From: Thiobacillus sp. 65-1402
GTDB taxonomy: Bacteria; Pseudomonadota; Gammaproteobacteria; Burkholderiales; Thiobacillaceae
Assembly: GCF_001897685.1 (NCBI RefSeq)
Contig: NZ_MKUG01000012.1
Location: 1 to 33,324 of the forward strand
Reading direction: 5' to 3'
Length of the DNA: 33,324 nt
Numbering within the stretch: position 1 is the stretch's first letter; each line of letters opens with the position of its first letter. Shown here piece after piece: positions 13,776 through 30,525 of this stretch. A program made the translations under genes and the position numbers. A model generated the notes under the pieces. The model did no database searches. It saw only the letters and a list, made by a program, of their open reading frames with translations, and was not told the origin of the DNA.

Positions 13776-13829
13776 TTCATACCCTATGCCGTTGTGAGCG
13801 TTGTGATTGCCTCCTGTCGGAGGCGGAGA

Positions 13830-14501
13830 TCAGGTGCGGGACGCTGAGGTGCCCGCGAACCCAAGAAACGCATGCTGTAAGCGAATCGGCATCGACGGCT
13901 TGGAGCGTGCATGTAGGCTCTGCCAAGTCCCGTCACTGATGTCGCTCGGGGCGAGGCGATCTACCGAGCGCGAAACTCTTCTCAAGTAAGCGTTGACGCC
14001 ATCCGCGGATTCCGAAGGAGCGCCGGCAAGAACGTACCCCACCATGAAGCCGATAGCATGGTTCTCGCCGTACTTCTCCTGGATGAATCGATCCATGCCC
14101 TCGACGACGTACTCTCGACACAAGTGAGTGTCCGACCCGGCGATTCGTTTGCATTCGATGATCGCGTGCGGATCATGCTCCTGCGTGCGCAAGAAAATTT
14201 CGACGAACGCCAGCGGGATGTCGGTACGTCCGTCTGGCAGCATCACGTTGCTTTTGGATCGCGATTCCGTGCCAGGCAGCACCATGATCTGCTTCCACGG
14301 GGAGTTCTTCAGCGCAATGCGCATCCCGTCCCGCAGGCGCTCGGTCATGATTACCTCTCCAGCGTTGGCATTCACGTCCTCGGCTGCGCATGCTCGCTGC
14401 CAACCTGCGGCCAGTGTCAGCAGAATGACCGCCACAACCTCGGGCTCAAGTTCAATGAACTCTCTGCCCAGTGCAGGAGGTGCCTCATAGGGGATCCTCA
14501 A
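13830..14501 (-). CDS. putative PD-(D/E)XK nuclease of the methylase cassette
   Basis: A 223-residue protein of unknown family. The central part reads as a PD-(D/E)XK nuclease core: GRTDIPLAFVEIF supplies Asp94, then HAIIECKRI supplies Glu116 and Lys118 at the correct spacing, followed by a helix with CREYVVEGMDRFIQEKYGE. The last ~45 residues are Arg/Ser-rich. It starts within the methylase stop codon (4-nt overlap), so it is the third gene of a translationally coupled operon. By context it could be the cutting or effector subunit that recognises unmodified DNA. It could alternatively be a nickase or a degenerate nuclease-fold protein. The motif is seen; nuclease activity is inferred. Confidence 0.65.
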   Translation of the reverse strand: MRIPYEAPPALGREFIELEPEVVAVILLTLAAGWQRACAAEDVNANAGEVIMTERLRDGMRIALKNSPWKQIMVLPGTESRSKSNVMLPDGRTDIPLAFVEIFLRTQEHDPHAIIECKRIAGSDTHLCREYVVEGMDRFIQEKYGENHAIGFMVGYVLAGAPSESADGVNAYLRRVSRSVDRLAPSDISDGTWQSLHARSKPSMPIRLQHAFLGFAGTSASRT

Positions 14502-17461
14502 ACTTTGCCCCCTGAAAAGCTCTCCGCGACCACTGCATCGGCATCTTCCAGTGCCGCTATGCCCATCCAGTAGCGCCGCGCTGCTGGCTTGATGATCACG
14601 ACTTCGTTGCGTCCGTGTACTCGCAATTCCCGCTCTGCACTGAGCGCGGTCGCAATCTTGACTTTCAGGCGCCTGCCGATACGTGCCAGTACTTCACCCA
14701 ATTCGCCTTGTGGTGCCACGACGCTCACGCTCGCATTACCCGGCCCTTCTTCCAAGACAAAGCGCACGACGCGCAAGGCCGAACTGCTTGGCAAGTCGAG
14801 CACTTCGGCGCGCATGTGCCGCTTATTGCGAACGGAAAGCCAATCCTCGATAACGGACAGGAACGTCTTGGCATACGCCGTGACCTCAGTACGACTGTCC
14901 GATGGCTCCACGGATGATTCGCGGCCGGTTTCCCATTGCCACCCGGCGCGAAGGAGGCCGTCTCGAATGACAGTTCGGTCGGCATCGTTCAGTTCGTACA
15001 GATCGAAGACAGCTTCGTCCAGTTCAGCCCATCCCCTCTCGTCGGTGCCGTTGGCGCGCAGATTCTTCTCAATCTGCAGCAGGCGCTGGCCAGCCTCAGA
15101 TTTCACTGCGCTCGTGAAATTAGGCACCGGTAGGAAGCTGAGGTCGCGAGCCAGCAGCTTCCTCTTGTAGATTCCAAACTCTGCAGCGGTCAGATAGAAG
15201 AACCATGTCGCAAAAGCAGAACTCAACACGGTGGCAAGCAAATGTGCCGTCCGCGTGTGCCCTCTCGGAAGAGACACTGCGAAGTATGAGTTCGTGAAGA
15301 CGAGATCCCGCTCGGAGACGGCCGCCAAGACGCGTGGACTCCCCAGAAGCATTTCCTTCACGATGAGAAGCGGGGCTTGATATATCTCCCGCGATCGTGG
15401 CCATTGTGCCTTCGATTGGCTGAAAGTCGGCAAATCATCGGGAATGTTGAAGTGCTGCATGTCTTTGACTTGCAGTACATCCAATCCTTTTAGCGGGCGA
15501 GCATCGCGCGTCTGATTCTCTGGGGCCCCGCGAATCAATCCAACCTGGAAGGTAGTGTCGAGTAATGAGAGTTGCTCGCCCAGATTTCTGTGGGCCGAAG
15601 TCAAGTCATCCAGCAATAGGAGGTCACGGCGCCGGCCAACGGCTGCTGCCTTGAGCTTCAACGGCTGTTCTTGGATTTCGTCGAGTGTCAAAGTGATGAC
15701 GTCACTCGGCGCCACCTCGAACGAATGAGTCCTTGCACCGCTGGGCGTCCACGGGATCTGAACGACCGTGACCTGATCCGTTCGCTGCTTCGGTCGATGA
15801 CGGGCAAAGAGAACCACTGCGGGCATGGCCGCTGTCGCGAAGAGCCAACTGCACAAATTGGACAGATTTACCAAGGTGATCGGAGCCACGGCTCGCATCA
15901 CATGCTGAGCTGCTGCCATGCCGGTGCCGCTGCGGCTGAAGAACGGCATCGCGCTAAGAATGATGCCGAAACGGGTCTTCTCATGTGAGAACTCCGCCGC
16001 TCGCAACACGAAATCCAAGCCTTCACCGCGCGGTTGCGCAGGTACGCCCGCAACCCTGGTCTTGCGCCGCGCTTCGGTTCCTGTCTGCCCCCTAAAGCTC
16101 CAAGGGGGATTGCCCACGATAAGGTCGAACTGCTTCAGCCCTGTCGGCGTCGCCAGCACGGCCTTGCCATCTCCATCACGTTCGACAGTACGAGCGTCAC
16201 CGACGAGCAATGTCCTGCCGATCAATGGCTGGAACTTCAGGGACTGCGGTGGTTGCGGGTCAGGGTCCAGCTCAAGCGCAGCCAGGTACAGGCTGAACGC
16301 AGCGACGCGAATCGCGGCTTCGCTAATGTCTACGCCATACACCTGCCCGTAGAGCGTCGAGCGGATCAGCTCCCTCGTGGGCGGCTGACCTTGCGAGCGA
16401 AGATGAACCAAGCGCCGCAGCGCTTCGACCAGGAAGACACCGGAGCCGCACGTCAAATCCAGCACCGACTCCCGTCCAGATAGACCATCCATGACCTCAT
16501 CGAGGACCAGCGAGACGACGGACAGTCGCGTGTAGTGCACGCCGTTTCGCAACGCTTCTGTGCGCTTTCCTCCAGTCTGCGGCTCAGCATGTGCAAACTG
16601 CTCGTAGATCGAGCTGATGAGCTCGACCGGAATCACGTCGAACTGGTACGGGAAGAAGCTGAGTTGCCCGCTTTCAGGATCGACAGCCTCCAGGAACTCC
16701 GCAACCCGCGTCAAATGGTGAGCTGCTGGTGTCGTTTTCACCGACGAGGGCGGAAACATATCGCCGTTGAAGGTCTGGGCCAGCCATGCGAACAGCTTGC
16801 TGGTCGCTGGCCGGTCGTGCAGGATCGCCGGCAACGCCGTGCGGCCGCATACCCGCTTCAACCGCGCCGCACTGACGATCTCGCGGTCAATCAGGTACTG
16901 GGTGAAGATCACGCGCCCAATCAAGGCCTGCGCCGCATCGCGCGCGAGATTGCCTGCGACCAAATCGCGTTCGAGACATCCAAGGTCAGACAGGAGCTTC
17001 TGATCGACGCTGGTCTTGCGATCGATGGCCGGCACCTGGGCCCAGAATTGGCCCGTCTCGATCGCCAGTCGGCCGGCCAACTCGTCCAGTTCATGAAGCG
17101 AACCTTCGATGTTCTCGAAACGCCGAATCAAATGTCTCTGGGCATCGCCTTCTTTCGCGGGTGTGCCGAAACCGTTGTACAGGTCGATACGCTGCGGCGA
17201 GATCACCCACAGCAACGGCGCGAACCCCTCGTTCCAGACCTCTCGTCGCCACTGGCTGACCAGATCGTCTGCAGGCGCGCTTTGCTCAAACTTGAAGTAG
17301 ACGGTCAACGACGACGCGCTGCGCCACAATGCGTCCGGAACAAAAACGCGGCCGTGGCGCGAGGACTGCGCCTCGGCCCCCAACCGAAGACCGGGCGCGG
17401 GTTGCCCGTCCGGCAGGTAGCCGGTTGCGGCGAGCACCTGTTCCAGCGTGGCAGTGTTCAC
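14498..17461 (-). CDS. N6-adenine DNA methyltransferase, Eco57I/type IIG-like, 987 aa
   Basis: A large gamma-class N6-adenine methylase. SAM motif I is VLDLTCGSGVFLVEAL (about 333-348) and catalytic motif IV is NPPW (451-454). The lead-in GVHYT (308-311) is the usual element before motif I in the Eco57I/PglX/type IIG group. Residues ~600-830 (LLLDDLTSAHRNLGEQLSLL, then PLKGLDVLQVKDMQHF) look like a target-recognition domain. About 150 further residues follow. The N-terminal ~100 residues resemble the nuclease-like module of type IIG enzymes (RVFVPDALWRSASSLTVYFK and LLWVISPQRIDLYNGFG). The place of the ExK motif is taken by YFK, so it is probably not a nuclease. Both neighbours overlap it by 4 nt. 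Base composition is less GC-rich than the transfer genes, consistent with cargo. Confidence 0.88.
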   Translation of the reverse strand: MNTATLEQVLAATGYLPDGQPAPGLRLGAEAQSSRHGRVFVPDALWRSASSLTVYFKFEQSAPADDLVSQWRREVWNEGFAPLLWVISPQRIDLYNGFGTPAKEGDAQRHLIRRFENIEGSLHELDELAGRLAIETGQFWAQVPAIDRKTSVDQKLLSDLGCLERDLVAGNLARDAAQALIGRVIFTQYLIDREIVSAARLKRVCGRTALPAILHDRPATSKLFAWLAQTFNGDMFPPSSVKTTPAAHHLTRVAEFLEAVDPESGQLSFFPYQFDVIPVELISSIYEQFAHAEPQTGGKRTEALRNGVHYTRLSVVSLVLDEVMDGLSGRESVLDLTCGSGVFLVEALRRLVHLRSQGQPPTRELIRSTLYGQVYGVDISEAAIRVAAFSLYLAALELDPDPQPPQSLKFQPLIGRTLLVGDARTVERDGDGKAVLATPTGLKQFDLIVGNPPWSFRGQTGTEARRKTRVAGVPAQPRGEGLDFVLRAAEFSHEKTRFGIILSAMPFFSRSGTGMAAAQHVMRAVAPITLVNLSNLCSWLFATAAMPAVVLFARHRPKQRTDQVTVVQIPWTPSGARTHSFEVAPSDVITLTLDEIQEQPLKLKAAAVGRRRDLLLLDDLTSAHRNLGEQLSLLDTTFQVGLIRGAPENQTRDARPLKGLDVLQVKDMQHFNIPDDLPTFSQSKAQWPRSREIYQAPLLIVKEMLLGSPRVLAAVSERDLVFTNSYFAVSLPRGHTRTAHLLATVLSSAFATWFFYLTAAEFGIYKRKLLARDLSFLPVPNFTSAVKSEAGQRLLQIEKNLRANGTDERGWAELDEAVFDLYELNDADRTVIRDGLLRAGWQWETGRESSVEPSDSRTEVTAYAKTFLSVIEDWLSVRNKRHMRAEVLDLPSSSALRVVRFVLEEGPGNASVSVVAPQGELGEVLARIGRRLKVKIATALSAERELRVHGRNEVVIIKPAARRYWMGIAALEDADAVVAESFSGGKV

Positions 17462-17934
17462 GCCCTACTCCGGATAGCTTCGGGTGGAAACGGCAACGCT
17501 GCCTGGCTCGGCGTCGGGACGATCGGCAGCATGTGCTGCTGAAGCCGCATGATCAACGGATCGAGCGGGATGACGAGAGTCGGTTGCGTCGGCGCCGGTC
17601 CAATCCCCTCGGGGCCGATATCGCACAGGGTCGCCGAAGTGGCCGTCACGAACGCCACGGACCCATTCAGCGCCAATGCGCTACTCGTGCCCAGCAACCG
17701 AAAGAGCGCGTCAACGCCGACGCTGACGGTGGCGATGTGCACTCCCAACGAGCTGACCAACTCATTGGTAACGGCCAAGCCTAGGAGATCCGCGAAGGTG
17801 AATCGGGCAGCCTTCCCGGTCTTGGACGCCAAGTAGGGCACGGTCTTGCGCCAATGCCGCACCGTTTCGACGGACACGCCGGTTAGCGTGCGCATCTGGT
17901 CCTGAGTGTACTGGATGGCGGTGACGGCAGACAT
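17458..17934 (-). CDS. MerR-like helix-turn-helix protein of the methylase cassette
   Basis: A 158-residue protein with an N-terminal MerR-type winged helix: YTQDQMRTLTGVSVETVRHW (helix-turn-helix), then TVPYLASKTGKAARFTFADL, the wing plus following helix. The remainder is hydrophobic and Pro-rich (GPEGIGPAPTQPTLVIPLDP) with no Cys pair for metal binding and no typical long MerR dimerisation coil. It is the first gene of the cassette and overlaps the methylase start by 4 nt. It may autoregulate the operon or act as a DNA-binding subunit. The ATG at 17934 is preferred over an upstream in-frame TTG (17949); neither has a strong ribosome site. Confidence 0.75.
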   Translation of the reverse strand: MSAVTAIQYTQDQMRTLTGVSVETVRHWRKTVPYLASKTGKAARFTFADLLGLAVTNELVSSLGVHIATVSVGVDALFRLLGTSSALALNGSVAFVTATSATLCDIGPEGIGPAPTQPTLVIPLDPLIMRLQQHMLPIVPTPSQAALPFPPEAIRSRA

Positions 17935-17960
17935 TCGCGTTGCTGGCAACTAGAAAATAT

Positions 17961-17971
17961 GCAGATTCTGC
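17961..17971. promoter_or_regulatory. small dyad upstream of the MerR-like gene
   Basis: GCAGATTCTGC is a perfect 5+1+5 palindrome 27 nt upstream of the MerR-like start codon. MerR-type regulators bind dyads in their own promoters, so it may be an operator. No good -35/-10 pair could be fixed around it. Confidence 0.25.
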
Positions 17972-18096
17972 CATGCAAAGGTGTGCTTCTCAACAGGTAA
18001 AGGCCGGTTCAGCCGCCTATCCCACAAGCCTTCCAAGCTTCCGAAAGTCGCGACCATCAGAGCGCATCGCGAACGTGTGGATAGGGGCAAGACGCA

Positions 18097-18119
18097 AGGC
18101 GCCCCCGGAAGGGGCGCCT
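18097..18119 (-). terminator. strong hairpin downstream of radC-like gene
   Basis: AGGCGCCCC (18097-18105), a 5-nt loop, and GGGGCGCCT (18111-18119) make a 9-bp GC-rich stem 6 nt after the radC stop on the minus strand. The following minus-strand sequence is TGCGTCTTGCC, only weakly T-rich. It probably insulates the transfer operon from the cassette further on. Confidence 0.55.
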
Positions 18120-18124
18120 GCGGA

Positions 18125-26951: not shown

Positions 26952-27313
26952 GGCGACGGCTCCTCGTCGTCGGCGCGGTCGCGGCGGACGTAGTCGCCGG
27001 CCAGCGGGACGGGATCGCGCGGCTGGGCGCGCTGGGGCACGAGGTAGTCCTGCAGGCCGGCGCGAACGCGCTTAAGGTCGGCACGCAGCCGGGCGTAGTC
27101 GAAGTGGTAGCGGGCGCGTTCCTGCGGAGCGGTATGGGCGGCGTGCTCGGCGAGGCGGTCGATCAGGTCGAGCTGGCGGGCGAGCGCGGCGAGCTGCTCG
27201 CGCTCCATGGCGAGGCTGTCGGCGGCGTCGGCAGGTTGCATGACCGAAAGCAACACGGCCAACAGCACGGCCAGCGAAGGCCATGCGGATGTGCGGCGGT
27301 TGGTCTGTCCCAT
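26948..27313 (-). CDS. RAQPRD family integrative conjugative element protein
   Basis: A 121-residue exported protein containing the motif RAQPRD that names the family (after LQDYLVPQ). A signal peptide (WPSLAVLLAVLLSVMQPADA) precedes ADSLAMEREQLAALARQLDL, a helical segment. It is the first gene of the minus-strand transfer operon still present. In complete ICEs of this type the TIGR03747 and TraD genes lie just upstream on the same strand; here a ~130-nt gap and then CBASS genes are found instead. Confidence 0.94.
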   Translation of the reverse strand: MGQTNRRTSAWPSLAVLLAVLLSVMQPADAADSLAMEREQLAALARQLDLIDRLAEHAAHTAPQERARYHFDYARLRADLKRVRAGLQDYLVPQRAQPRDPVPLAGDYVRRDRADDEEPSP

Positions 27314-27442
27314 CGTGCCATTCCCAAGTGAAGCGAATGGCCTTGATGCTGTGTCCCTTGCTCGGCTCGCGCCGCAATCAAACGGAACCGGTGGTCAACC
27401 GTATTTCAGATGTGATGCTTGCCTGTTAAGCCAATCCTTTGA

Positions 27443-28336
27443 CTACCAGTCGTTCCAAAGCTGCACCGCCGCCTCGATGAACGCATCACAGGCTGCCTGT
27501 CGCCAGCACGTGTGGTAACCATCTCGCAGCAGGTAATACTGCTCGTTGGCACACACGAGGTCGGTTTTCGAAGCCTCCTGCCGATACCAATTCAAGGTGT
27601 TGACCACGCAGTCCTGATAGCTAGTGGTGAGCTTCTCGTTCGGCACGTTGTACAGCAAGCCTTCGATGTAGTACGAAGGTGCGATACCGGCCCTAATCAG
27701 GCCGTCTTCGACCATCCGGCTGCGCATGTTCTTGAACACCCGGGCCATAGGTTTGAGCCACTGCGAAGAGGCCTGATGCTTCGCCGTCAGGTTCGCCGAG
27801 TGCTGCTTTGGGTAGTTCGCGATTCGCTCGCCGGCAGAGTTGAAAAAGCAAATGCCTTCGACGTACTCAGAGTCACTCGCTGACCGGAACTTGAAGTAGC
27901 GCCGGAATTGCGTCGCAACAATCACGTCCGACTTGCGCCGCGAGCCACTCGCGTCAATGGCAATCGCCTTGTCGCCGGCTTTCACGGCCGAGCCGTATTG
28001 CCCCTCAAGCACCGACAGTACGTCCCGCCTGAAGTCGGCATGTGTGTAGGTCGCGTCGCTGAATGCCTGCTTGTAGGCCGACTTTTCGTCATCGGACAGA
28101 GATTCGAGATCGCTGTGAAAGCAGTCGTCGAGCCGTATGACGATATCCACGTCGCTCTCGGCGTAGATATTCGTGTCGTTACCGTACGAGCCTTGAAGGA
28201 ACACTTTGAAGTTCCTGCCAGCATACGGCGTGGTGCTGTCCTCCAGGACGCTCTTGATCGTCTTGTAAGTGCTGCTCGACTGGGTAATCGATCCCTGGTG
28301 GGACCACGTTTCGAGCTGCGATTCTGGAATTGGCAT
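27443..28336 (-). CDS. CBASS cyclic oligonucleotide synthase (CD-NTase)
   Basis: A cGAS/DncV-like nucleotidyltransferase that would make a cyclic di- or trinucleotide second messenger on phage infection. The 297-residue protein starts [15 protein letters not shown], with GGGGGA upstream. The catalytic core is [20 protein letters not shown]: Gly49-Ser50, Asp62 and Asp64, with a third acidic residue at Asp137 (RRKSDVIVA). It lies 13 nt after capV on the same strand, forming a two-gene type I CBASS. The nucleotide product and CD-NTase clade cannot be told from reading alone. Base composition is clearly more AT-rich than the transfer genes, indicating separate origin. Confidence 0.9.
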
Positions 28337-28349
28337 CTTCTTCCCCCGG

Positions 28350-29297
28350 CTATAGCAAATACTCGCGAAGCTGCGTCTCCCGCGACGCGAACGACTCCCG
28401 TCCTCGCTGAAACAAGACACCCAGCTTCTTGAGGTCGTGCTCCAGCAGATCGGTCGCCATTTCAGGCGTGACGTAGGAGTCGTTGATCCGGATGGTCGGT
28501 ACGTCATGGAACAGAATCTGCCGCAGCTGGTCCATCGACTGCGTGTTGATCTCTAGGGTCTTCTGCAGCAATTGGACACTGACGAGATATTTTTTCGCCA
28601 GCCACATCAACAGGCTCGGCTTCGGGTCGGGGTACATGCCCACGCCAACGCTCACAAGCCGAATGTCCTTGCGATCTCTCCGAAGCGCCTGGACCGCATC
28701 GGCGATTGCGTACAGCGTCGGGTTGTTTGCGCAGTACCCGCCGTCGATCAGCTCAATGTCCTCACCCATTGCGGTTCTGACGATCGTTCGCTCGAAGAAC
28801 GGGTAGGCCGAGCACGACGCCTTGACAGCGTCTGCGATGCTTACGCCAAAGCCCGGGACGAACGTGCCGACACGTCCATGCGCTTGGGCAACGCTGCCCT
28901 TGAAGATCATCGGGCGCTCGGTCAGCCACTTGGCTGTGACGATCCCTACACCTGTCTTCACGTCATTGAACGTTGCATTGCCGAAGACTTCGCGCGCCAG
29001 ATTTTTCAATGCCTGCGACCTGGCCGGAGCGGTCTTCTGTGACATCACGGTAGGTACGTGCTTGCGGTAAAGCTGCAGGATGGAATCGACGTCGTGACCG
29101 AGCGCAATCAGTGACGCGATGATCGCGCCTGTGCTGGTCCCAAAAACCAGATCGAATTTCTGGTGCAGTGGGCACCCGACCATAGCCTCGATTTCCTTGA
29201 GTACCCCCAGTGTGTAAAAGCCCTTGGCGCCGCCGCCGTCTAGCGTAAGGACGCGCAGCAAGGCAGGTGATGTCGAGTCATCTTTCGATTCCACCAT
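28350..29297 (-). CDS. capV: patatin-like phospholipase, CBASS effector CapV
   Basis: CapV-type phospholipases are activated by the cyclic nucleotide of their partner synthase and degrade the inner membrane, killing the infected cell. The 315-residue protein has the full patatin set: the oxyanion-hole loop DGGGAKG (20-26), the nucleophile elbow GTSTG with Ser55, and the catalytic Asp185 in [11 protein letters not shown]. The ATG at 29297 is preferred over one 33 nt upstream because GGGAGGG precedes it at good spacing. The synthase gene follows after 13 nt. No cap2/cap3 ubiquitin-like genes are present, so this is a minimal CBASS. Active-site residues look intact. Confidence 0.92.
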
Positions 29298-29595
29298 TTT
29301 CAACGCCCTCCCCAAAGATGATGAACACATGCAATGCTGGCGATCATCAGCTCAATCCCGAGACTGAAATCGTGTCGCGCCAGCGTCTCTGGCTTGAGGT
29401 GAAGCTCCGCGAAATCTTGCATGGCGCCCGTACCGATCCTTTTATCGCTGCGCCGCTTGTGGTTATCACAATACGACGCACACACAAATCAAAATAGAGT
29501 CATGGACAGATTCTAGGGCGGACCATATACTTTCCGCAATAACCACTATAAGCATTCGCTAACCCGAACGAGCCAGCTTTCTTGGTAAAAGAGTG
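29298..29595. promoter_or_regulatory. divergent control region between CBASS and WYL regulator
   Basis: This 298-nt gene-free, AT-rich region separates capV (minus) from the WYL-domain gene (plus) and must contain both promoters. It holds a perfect dyad TTGTG-GTTAT-CACAA (29457-29471). The 8-mer GTGGTTAT (29459-29466) recurs inverted as ATAACCAC (29539-29546), about 50 nt before the WYL start. These are reasonable operator candidates for the WYL protein. No consensus -35/-10 pair could be assigned with confidence. Confidence 0.45.
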
Positions 29596-30525
29596 ATGTC
29601 GAACGAACAGCTTGCAGATCTGACCCAGCCACAACGTGATCGGCTCGCGTTCGTGGAGTTGCGCGTGCGCTTCATCGGGGAGATACGCCGCCAGGACCTG
29701 GTGACGCGCTTCGGCATCCAGTCCGCCGCCGCATCCAGGGATCTGGCGCTGTACAAGGAGTTGGCGCCCGGCAACATCGACTACGACCCCAAGGGCAAGT
29801 CCTACGTCCTGGGGCCGGACTTCCGGCCCGTCTTCGACTTCCCGCCGGAGCGGGTGCTGTCGTGGCTGACCCAGGGCTTTGGCGATGGTGAGCCGGTGCG
29901 GCTCAAGGCCTGGTTTGGCAATGAGGTGCTGGCCAGCGAGAGCCCGTCACGGCTCACGCATCCGGATCTGGATGTGCTGGCGAGCGTGACCCGTGCGATT
30001 CACCAGGAGTGTCCGCTCGGCATCGAGTACCACTCCATCTCCAGTGGCCGCACCGAGCGGGAGATCGTCCCGTTCGCGCTGATCGACAACGGTCTGCGCT
30101 GGCACGTCCGCGCCTTCGACCGGAAGTCCCAGGAGTTCCGGGATTTCGTCATCACCCGGATCAAGCGCCCCGTGCTGCTCAAGGGCCAGCCAGTGGCGCC
30201 CCACGAGGCCAGCGATCAGGACATTCAGTGGACCCGAATCGTCGAGTTGGAGCTGGTGCCACACCCAGACCAGCCCCGGCCGGAGATCACCGAGATGGAC
30301 TACAGCATGCAGGGTGGAGTGCTGCGGATGAAGCTGCGGGCTGCCACCGCCGGTTACATCCTTCGCCAATGGAGTGTGGACTGCACGCCCGACCACAGCT
30401 TGCACGGGTATGAGTACCGGTTGTGGCTGAAGGACCACTTGGCCATCTACGGCGTGCGAAATGCCGTGCTGGCGCCGGGCTACCGCTCCCCTGATCAACA
30501 ACGGCTTGAAGCCGAGTCGGACTGA
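29596..30525 (+). CDS. brxR: WYL-domain transcriptional regulator, BrxR/CapW family
   Basis: A 309-residue defence-island regulator: an N-terminal winged HTH (about 12-72: LAFVELRVRFIGEIRRQDLV, then GIQSAAASRDLALYK), a WYL domain (about 140-200, with RWHVRAFDRKSQEFRDFVIT) and a C-terminal WCX domain. BrxR represses BREX operons and CapW represses CBASS operons; both belong to this family. The next gene is a brxF remnant starting 4 nt after the stop, which favours BrxR. The divergent neighbour is a CBASS capV, the position CapW usually takes. An in-frame GTG directly upstream is an alternative start. A ligand-binding role of the WYL domain is known for the family but the signal here is unknown. 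Confidence 0.88.
   Translation: MSNEQLADLTQPQRDRLAFVELRVRFIGEIRRQDLVTRFGIQSAAASRDLALYKELAPGNIDYDPKGKSYVLGPDFRPVFDFPPERVLSWLTQGFGDGEPVRLKAWFGNEVLASESPSRLTHPDLDVLASVTRAIHQECPLGIEYHSISSGRTEREIVPFALIDNGLRWHVRAFDRKSQEFRDFVITRIKRPVLLKGQPVAPHEASDQDIQWTRIVELELVPHPDQPRPEITEMDYSMQGGVLRMKLRAATAGYILRQWSVDCTPDHSLHGYEYRLWLKDHLAIYGVRNAVLAPGYRSPDQQRLEAESD

Follow-up and report, generated by a model that had tools for sequence, protein, structure and literature searches.

The cassette described here lies on the minus strand of the window, the whole stretch of 33,324 nucleotides analysed from Thiobacillus sp. 65-1402, and consists of three genes for a small helix-turn-helix (HTH) protein (gene 1), a 987-aa N6-adenine methylase (gene 2) and a 223-aa protein (gene 3), which overlap by 4 nt at both junctions (Table 1). 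A preliminary description, made from the sequence alone, had reported this one-strand arrangement with its overlaps, a MerR-type HTH in the first gene, the methylase motifs DLTCGSG and NPPW, and the residues D94 and E116-x-K118 of gene 3, and all of these were confirmed. It placed the cassette at positions 13830-17934; the three ORFs are present there, but gene 1 may start at TTG 17949 (163 aa) instead of the in-frame ATG 17934 (158 aa), and the choice between the two is uncertain. The hairpins reported after the last gene and after radC are real by folding energy, and a scan for the terminator consensus reported neither of them (the region has 4 terminator-like sites, with 4.1 expected). As had also been noted, the cassette is less GC-rich than its neighbours (0.60 versus 0.67 and 0.69 in the flanks).

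Table 1. Features of the three-gene cassette and its surroundings, in window coordinates
Feature	Position	Strand	Description
Insertion extent	13779..18124		About 4.35 kb between radC and TIGR03757, from alignment to plasmid loci L088 and L089
Hairpin directly 3' of last stop codon	13809..13824	-	6-bp stem, -12.7 kcal/mol, z -3.2
Gene 3	13830..14501	-	PD-(D/E)XK nuclease-like protein, 223 aa, TTG start
E116-C-K118 of gene 3	14148..14156	-	D94 at 14220-14222, E49 at 14355-14357
Gene 2	14498..17461	-	Putative N6-adenine methyltransferase, 987 aa, GTG start; specificity-like C-terminal part; Pfam N6_Mtase 2e-13
Overlap gene 2/gene 3	14498-14501	-	TTGA
Target-recognition-like region of gene 2	14852..15664	-	About residues 600-870; inferred assignment
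Motif NPPW of gene 2	16100..16111	-	Catalytic motif, residues 451-454; N451 and P453 unchanged across 23 divergent relatives
Motif I DLTCGSG of gene 2	16439..16459	-	Residues 335-341; D335, G339 and G341 unchanged across 23 divergent relatives
N-terminal part of gene 2	17027..17461	-	Residues 1-145; position of the nuclease in BpuSI-like Type IIG enzymes
Gene 1	17458..17949	-	MerR-like HTH protein, 163 aa from TTG; Pfam MerR_1 PF13411 E 6.1e-6, residues 14-75
Overlap gene 1/gene 2	17458-17461	-	GTGA
QAALPF of gene 1	17488..17505	-	Clamp-binding-like motif, residues 149-154
Promoter-like TTGAGA-17-CAGAAT with TG	17965..17993	-	1 found, 1.2 expected; no excess over chance
Hairpin 3' of radC, upstream of cassette	18093..18122	-	Strong; -25.8 kcal/mol, z -3.7

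The surrounding DNA is an integrative conjugative element (ICE), in which a TraC-type ATPase, RadC, TIGR03757, TIGR03756 and TIGR03755 were recognised with Pfam and NCBIfam. The claim that the cassette separates radC from TIGR03757 was borne out by two natural empty sites, in plasmid pKF715A and in a plasmid of Pseudomonas veronii Pvy, where radC is followed directly by TIGR03757; homology to these plasmids breaks off with the stop codon of radC (window 18125) and restarts at window 13778. Four of the 44 plasmid records with TIGR03757 were inspected, and the two others have different neighbours and are uninformative on the insertion. Among 151 genomes of the class, the genome of the window itself was the sole match for TIGR03757; in E. 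coli, 55 of 5426 genomes matched the TIGR03756/03757 region, none covering 80% of the query, and these matches were set aside. The element has a second low-GC stretch at window 27000-30000 (0.57-0.62 per kb), possibly another cargo insertion.

The methylase of the window matched the PADLOC models for Type IIG enzymes PDLC03623 (E = 6.6e-44) and PDLC03603 (5e-36). In the alignment of family members (A3), the former model matched all 23 (best 2.8e-250) and the latter 21, and the complete set of matches to PDLC03623 indicates that the nearest known relative is a Type IIG restriction-modification enzyme, with the cutter apparently in a separate gene. HsdM, BsaXI, PglX/BrxX, MmeI and BpuSI were among the matches of the gene 2 profile in the PDB. 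The motifs, including an NPPY/F/W motif as expected of Type IIG enzymes, identify the catalytic core as that of a gamma-class N6-adenine methylase. Pairwise identity per 30-residue block within the close family is 0.46-0.72 in residues 601-870 versus 0.76-0.91 in residues 301-570, and the variable residues of about 600-870 are consistent with a target-recognition or C-terminal specificity module. In both respects gene 2 would resemble the Type IIG/IIL enzymes BpuSI and MmeI. The nuclease of BpuSI is N-terminal, according to the available part of PMC4081073; in contrast to such enzymes, no family-wide [DE]xK was found in residues 1-200 of the 23 methylases. The best column, at residue 147, is occupied in 8 of the 23, including the window, and this DxK may be part of a helix-rich linker. 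In hhalign comparisons, the N-terminal part of the methylase gained no support for kinship to gene 3 or to PD-(D/E)XK profiles (0.07-0.63%). Gene 2 appears to have no cleavage domain in its own chain, and another gene seems to encode the cutter. The AlphaFold2 model of gene 2 had a mean pLDDT of 39.9, too poor for judging the fold, with an alignment of 15 rows (69-90% identity to the window protein).

The alignment of gene 3 comprised 31 proteins, the 30 others being 16-90% identical to that of the window; L032 was excluded because of a stop within its translated coordinates. Residues E49, T53, D94, E116, K118, F139, M153 and H210 are invariant in all 31, and E49, D94, E116 and K118 correspond to the D...(D/E)xK pattern, preceded by an acidic residue, of PD-(D/E)XK nucleases. 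When gene 3 was compared by hhalign with HSDR_N_2 (all 9 rows), a value of 39% was obtained and D94 and E116-K118 fell on the D and E-x-K of HSDR_N_2. This is close to the positive control (38% for HSDR_N_2 against Mrr, with 22 of 30 Mrr loci used); gene 3 gave 6% against Mrr and 0.2% against an HTH alignment, the single negative control. The comparison modestly supports membership of the PD-(D/E)XK superfamily. The window protein had no family match in Pfam, PADLOC or NCBIfam at E <= 1, and nothing credible was matched by the members of alignment A4 (best E 0.0028 in Pfam, for one member, and 0.041 in NCBIfam); among PDB sequences the profile found no more than two weak matches (E 0.65 and 0.66). 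The AlphaFold2 model was poor (mean pLDDT 43.8) because the alignment was too shallow (16 rows, 52-90% identity to the window protein). We consider that gene 3 is very probably a PD-(D/E)XK nuclease, a separate protein as the preliminary description had proposed. None of the 31 proteins matched the PADLOC models of 2023, so annotation with that library would show a Type IIG-like enzyme only.

The association of the genes was examined across genomes, plasmids and viruses. The methylase profile matched 7 of 398 Pseudomonadota genomes in an even draw, and the nuclease profile matched the same 7, each time at most 45 bp from the methylase match or overlapping it; one of them (G421) has an in-frame stop in gene 3. 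In the class of genome G115, gene 2 was matched in 9 of 385 genomes. By tblastn, all three genes were found in order in 32 of 36 loci, a number that includes the window's own locus and some loci that are copies of one another. The exceptions were two distant loci (L005 and L006), one locus with no HTH match (L027) and one at a contig end (L036); the two distant loci have the trio when their whole sequence is considered (as L037 and L038). Gene 3 was matched in part only at L023. No other gene family recurred beyond 4 of the 40 loci compared, considering ORFs of at least 90 aa in the fetched flanks. Four of the 40 (L024, L029, L030 and L038) encode, close to the cassette, a 633-aa protein that looks recombinase-like by eye and may be the vehicle there.

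Copies in ICEs of Stutzerimonas, Thauera, Rhodanobacter, Dyella and others have genes 2 and 3 that are 99-100% identical to those of the window, with 95-100% identity in gene 1 and 86-100% in the flanking Dsb protein; one ICE copy (L017) is at 90%. Relatives in Cupriavidus, Thiobacillus, Salinisphaera, Luteimonas and others (69-81%) occupy sites without transfer-gene neighbours. The methylase was matched in 53 plasmid records, of which 19 were inspected; a gene 3-like ORF lies downstream in 18 of them and a small regulator-like ORF upstream in 16, three of these being unannotated. Gene 3 alone as the query gave 2 plasmid records, and the methylase of L050 gave 9. The viral collection contained no methylase relative and one nuclease relative, at a contig edge with the upstream part cut off (L045 1-660, IMG/VR; 50% identity), and the phage records searched gave no match. 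On an Agrobacterium plasmid (L046 4980-7869), the annotated methylase is shorter (739 aa, the N-terminal part being absent), a nuclease-like gene is present and no HTH partner was seen, and on the uncultured plasmid pRSB223 (L057 24-6536) the methylase is split into two frames near resistance genes. Some plasmid copies have defence-type neighbours, namely an AAA ATPase and SIR2 (L047 9325-12841), AbiEi/AbiEii and a restriction endonuclease (L048 1200-4032), an Eco57I-like methylase (L056 6841-8775), and TIR and SIR2 (L064 6667-7287). The linkage of the trio is far above chance, and the trio is found in many different contexts; the earlier view of a self-contained three-gene unit holds.

Two features of gene 1 had been missed in the preliminary description, namely that the fold of this partner is exchangeable and that it has a clamp-binding-like tail. 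The partner is MerR-like in the window, L043 and L054 (above the Pfam cut-off) and in L037, L056 and L059 (below it), XRE-like in L048, L050, L053 and L047 (weak matches to HTH_3/HTH_31), ribbon-helix-helix-like in L061-L064, L070, L073 and L076, and winged-helix-like in L071, the labels of L070, L073, L076 and L071 having been given by eye. The partners of L038 and L051 matched no HTH family and were labelled MerR-like by eye. On a tree of 30 methylases, with long-branch warnings for L038, L047, L071, L037 and L051, the six partner labels require 7 changes, and motif-bearing XRE-type partners sit in two separated methylase clades, by exchange or by separate recruitment. At L078, an HTH of the window type (tail QSALPF) is paired with a methylase of the L048 type, interrupted by a stop, which represents partner exchange between subfamilies.

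Most partners end in forms such as QLDLF, QLPLF, QLTLF, QFDLF, QAALPF, QRELPL, QATLEL and similar. The motif that binds the bacterial beta sliding clamp is given as QLxLF (PMC4549789) or QL(S/D)LF, with a variable bacterial consensus that is hard to call (PMC9690074), and is often C-terminal in the available parts of both sources. We scored the last 50 residues of each partner for a strict pattern, Q[LFMIV]xLF, or a loose one, QxxLx[FL]. The longer, loose form also serves as a clamp motif, and the QAALPF of the window is of this six-residue type. Ten of the 16 partner clusters have a short motif of the QLxLF/QxxLxF type near the C-terminus, as do 51 of the 61 sequences. Many of the sequences are near-copies, and the clusters, made at 50% identity, retain some homology to one another and are not independent. 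These counts omit repeats of genes already counted (L005, L006, L039, L040, L065, L067 and L068) and loci with no partner or at a contig end (L027, L042, L045, L046, L052, L057, L066, L072, L077 and L079). As the patterns were fixed after the first examples had been seen, shuffled sequences, other ORFs and a set of MerR proteins were used as controls for this. In 5000 shuffles, the mean was 0.57 clusters and the maximum 5. Among the other ORFs of the fetched loci, 10 of 519 had the motif, one of them in its strict form (Fisher p 3e-12 for partner clusters versus other ORFs), and the count for ORFs similar in size was 8 of 279. Of the MerR_1 control proteins, 2 of 30 had it, neither of them strict (p 9e-5). 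The strict form was present in 7 of 61 partners and in none of the 54 proteins encoded by genes 2 and 3; the loose form occurs by chance somewhere in the chain in 8 of the 23 methylases and in 3 of the 31 nucleases.

Within the subfamily of the window, Q149, L152, P153 and F154 are identical in all 18 unique sequences (window included) and residues 150-151 vary. The motif is carried on two HTH types, MerR-like and XRE-like. It is absent from six clusters, comprising the ribbon-helix-helix-like partners (L061-L064, L070, L073 and L076), L071, the MerR-like L075, and L047, whose tail is a near-miss (QGRLGV). No conserved substitute clamp motif was found in the methylases or nucleases of the members without the tail, and, given these six clusters, clamp docking would be dispensable for part of the family unless the clamp is reached there in another way. 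From the enrichment of the motif, the tail probably binds the beta clamp.

We regard it as quite likely that the trio is restriction-modification-like, and we lean towards a split Type IIG-like system that an adaptor links to the replication clamp. As its family and motifs suggest, gene 2 would recognise a DNA sequence and methylate an adenine in it. Gene 3 would be a separate PD-(D/E)XK cutter working together with gene 2 at unmethylated sites, an activity and a partnership predicted because the genes are genetically linked; the tight linkage of separate R and M genes is that of Type II systems, the identification of the nuclease coming from its motif and profile. Gene 1 would be an HTH adaptor, possibly also an autoregulator, whose C-terminal tail may dock on the clamp. 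Through the clamp, the methylase would be recruited to freshly copied DNA and would re-mark the daughter sites ahead of the nuclease, and incoming unmarked DNA would be cut. That the clamp serves post-replicative methylation is a tentative suggestion, and so is the full scheme of clamp-guided restriction-modification, in which the HTH protein is a dedicated adaptor that holds the methylase on the beta clamp and the daughter strands are methylated at the fork; we would more readily doubt than assert either. The link of the clamp to methylation was drawn because modifiers of one strand of an asymmetric site leave one daughter duplex wholly unmarked, and this logic assumes that the recognition site here is asymmetric. 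How one-strand modifiers escape self-cleavage after replication is described as unclear for Type IIL enzymes and likewise for BREX in the available text of PMC7261183, and for the MmeI family in that of PMC4081073.

Several known proteins share part of this scheme. M.EcoGIX and M.BceJIII are plasmid replication-associated adenine methyltransferases with single-strand specificity, and M.EcoGIX partners DNA polymerase I, the sliding clamp being named as a possible intermediary (PMC7736820). These are also mobile-element adenine methylases tied to replication, but the available part of that paper describes no nuclease partner and shows no clamp-binding adaptor. Beta-clamp-binding transposases of insertion sequences are likewise mobile-element proteins with a short C-terminal tail of the QLxLF type, as far as the accessible text of PMC4549789 goes, but the proteins are unrelated and have no modification or nuclease partner. 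DNMT1 with PCNA (PMC9690074) and the T4 alpha-glucosyltransferase with gp45 (PMC13216743, 2026) are DNA-modifying enzymes linked to a sliding clamp, in the parts of these sources at hand. There the modifying enzyme itself binds the clamp, whereas here an HTH adaptor would do so, and for the T4 enzyme clamp binding is stated in that text not to be the main cause of the modification balance.

An ordinary Type II operon, in which gene 1 is a transcriptional controller like the C proteins, gene 2 the methylase and gene 3 the restriction enzyme, would account for the order of regulator, methylase and nuclease with 4-nt overlaps, for exchangeable regulator folds such as a controller would have, and for the 6 of 16 partner clusters without the tail motif; the motif would have no clamp role and might bind gene 2 instead. 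The cassette does resemble orthodox C-M-R operons in its three genes, but its methylase is Type IIG-like with about 1000 aa. The C proteins of Type II systems are small XRE proteins, and the partner here is often MerR-like with a clamp-binding-like tail. A generic controller would have no need of such a tail on both MerR-like and XRE-like partners. Moreover, the tail in the subfamily of the window keeps Q, L, P and F with the positions between Q and L free, and across subfamilies it alternates between the published pentapeptide and the longer form. We judge this explanation rather unlikely. The preferred reading, a clamp-tethered split Type IIG-like system, differs in turn from the known Type IIG/IIL enzymes in the third gene, an HTH protein with a clamp-motif-like tail.

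Two further explanations appear improbable to us. Methylase-based recognition might block the replication of unmarked DNA in the manner of BREX, with gene 1 taking the complex to the clamp of the invader and no simple cutting. The methylase core is related to PglX of BREX and Mad2 of MADS (matches to BREX-2 PglX in 22 of 23 family methylases and to Mad2 in 17 of 23, at E <= 0.001, in the catalytic core), gene 1 weakly matches the HTH of Mad1 (E 0.0012), and SocB is a known clamp-binding toxin that stops replication, in the available text of PMC9690074. However, gene 3 retains an apparently catalytic nuclease pattern, and no further gene family recurs beyond 4 of the 40 loci in the fetched flanks (ORFs of at least 90 aa), where BREX would require PglZ/BrxZ with BrxC and MADS further mad genes; genes 2 and 3 are also below the NCBIfam cut-off for Mad2. 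The cassette might instead be mainly an addiction module of conjugative elements and plasmids, its loss leaving undermethylated host DNA open to the nuclease. Such a role leaves the clamp motif unexplained, and the cassette also occurs at sites without ICE neighbours and beside defence-type genes; its presence on ICEs and many plasmids speaks for it, as does the post-segregational killing by which plasmid restriction-modification systems can act (PMC12707154, available part). The addiction reading is compatible with a restriction-modification function and does not exclude it.

The preliminary description did not recognise the combination of genes as BREX, DISARM, Hma or a standard type I, IIG or III system. 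For the trio this stands, with no match in PADLOC 2023, Pfam or NCBIfam; it does not stand for the methylase, which by itself is known and Type IIG-like. The methylase family is already in databases; no model searched matched the nuclease as a separate gene, the constant trio or the adaptor with the clamp motif. Among the matches listed in a literature search (titles and the start of abstracts, with preprints and most subscription papers outside its scope), there was no paper on clamp-linked restriction-modification, and a search on MADS returned unrelated Mad1/Mad2 papers. To our knowledge, no clamp-guided restriction-modification system has been known before.

The cassette adds a family, that of gene 3, which is missing from the PADLOC models of 2023. 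Because a Type IIG-like methylase regularly has a partner with a conserved, clamp-docking-like tail, one answer to the problem of self-cleavage is directly testable. If the scheme is true, it would explain how an enzyme that marks one strand of an asymmetric site spares its own freshly replicated daughter duplex, and the cassette would be a bacterial counterpart of the PCNA-linked maintenance methylation by DNMT1; its HTH fold would have been exchanged during evolution and its clamp tail retained.
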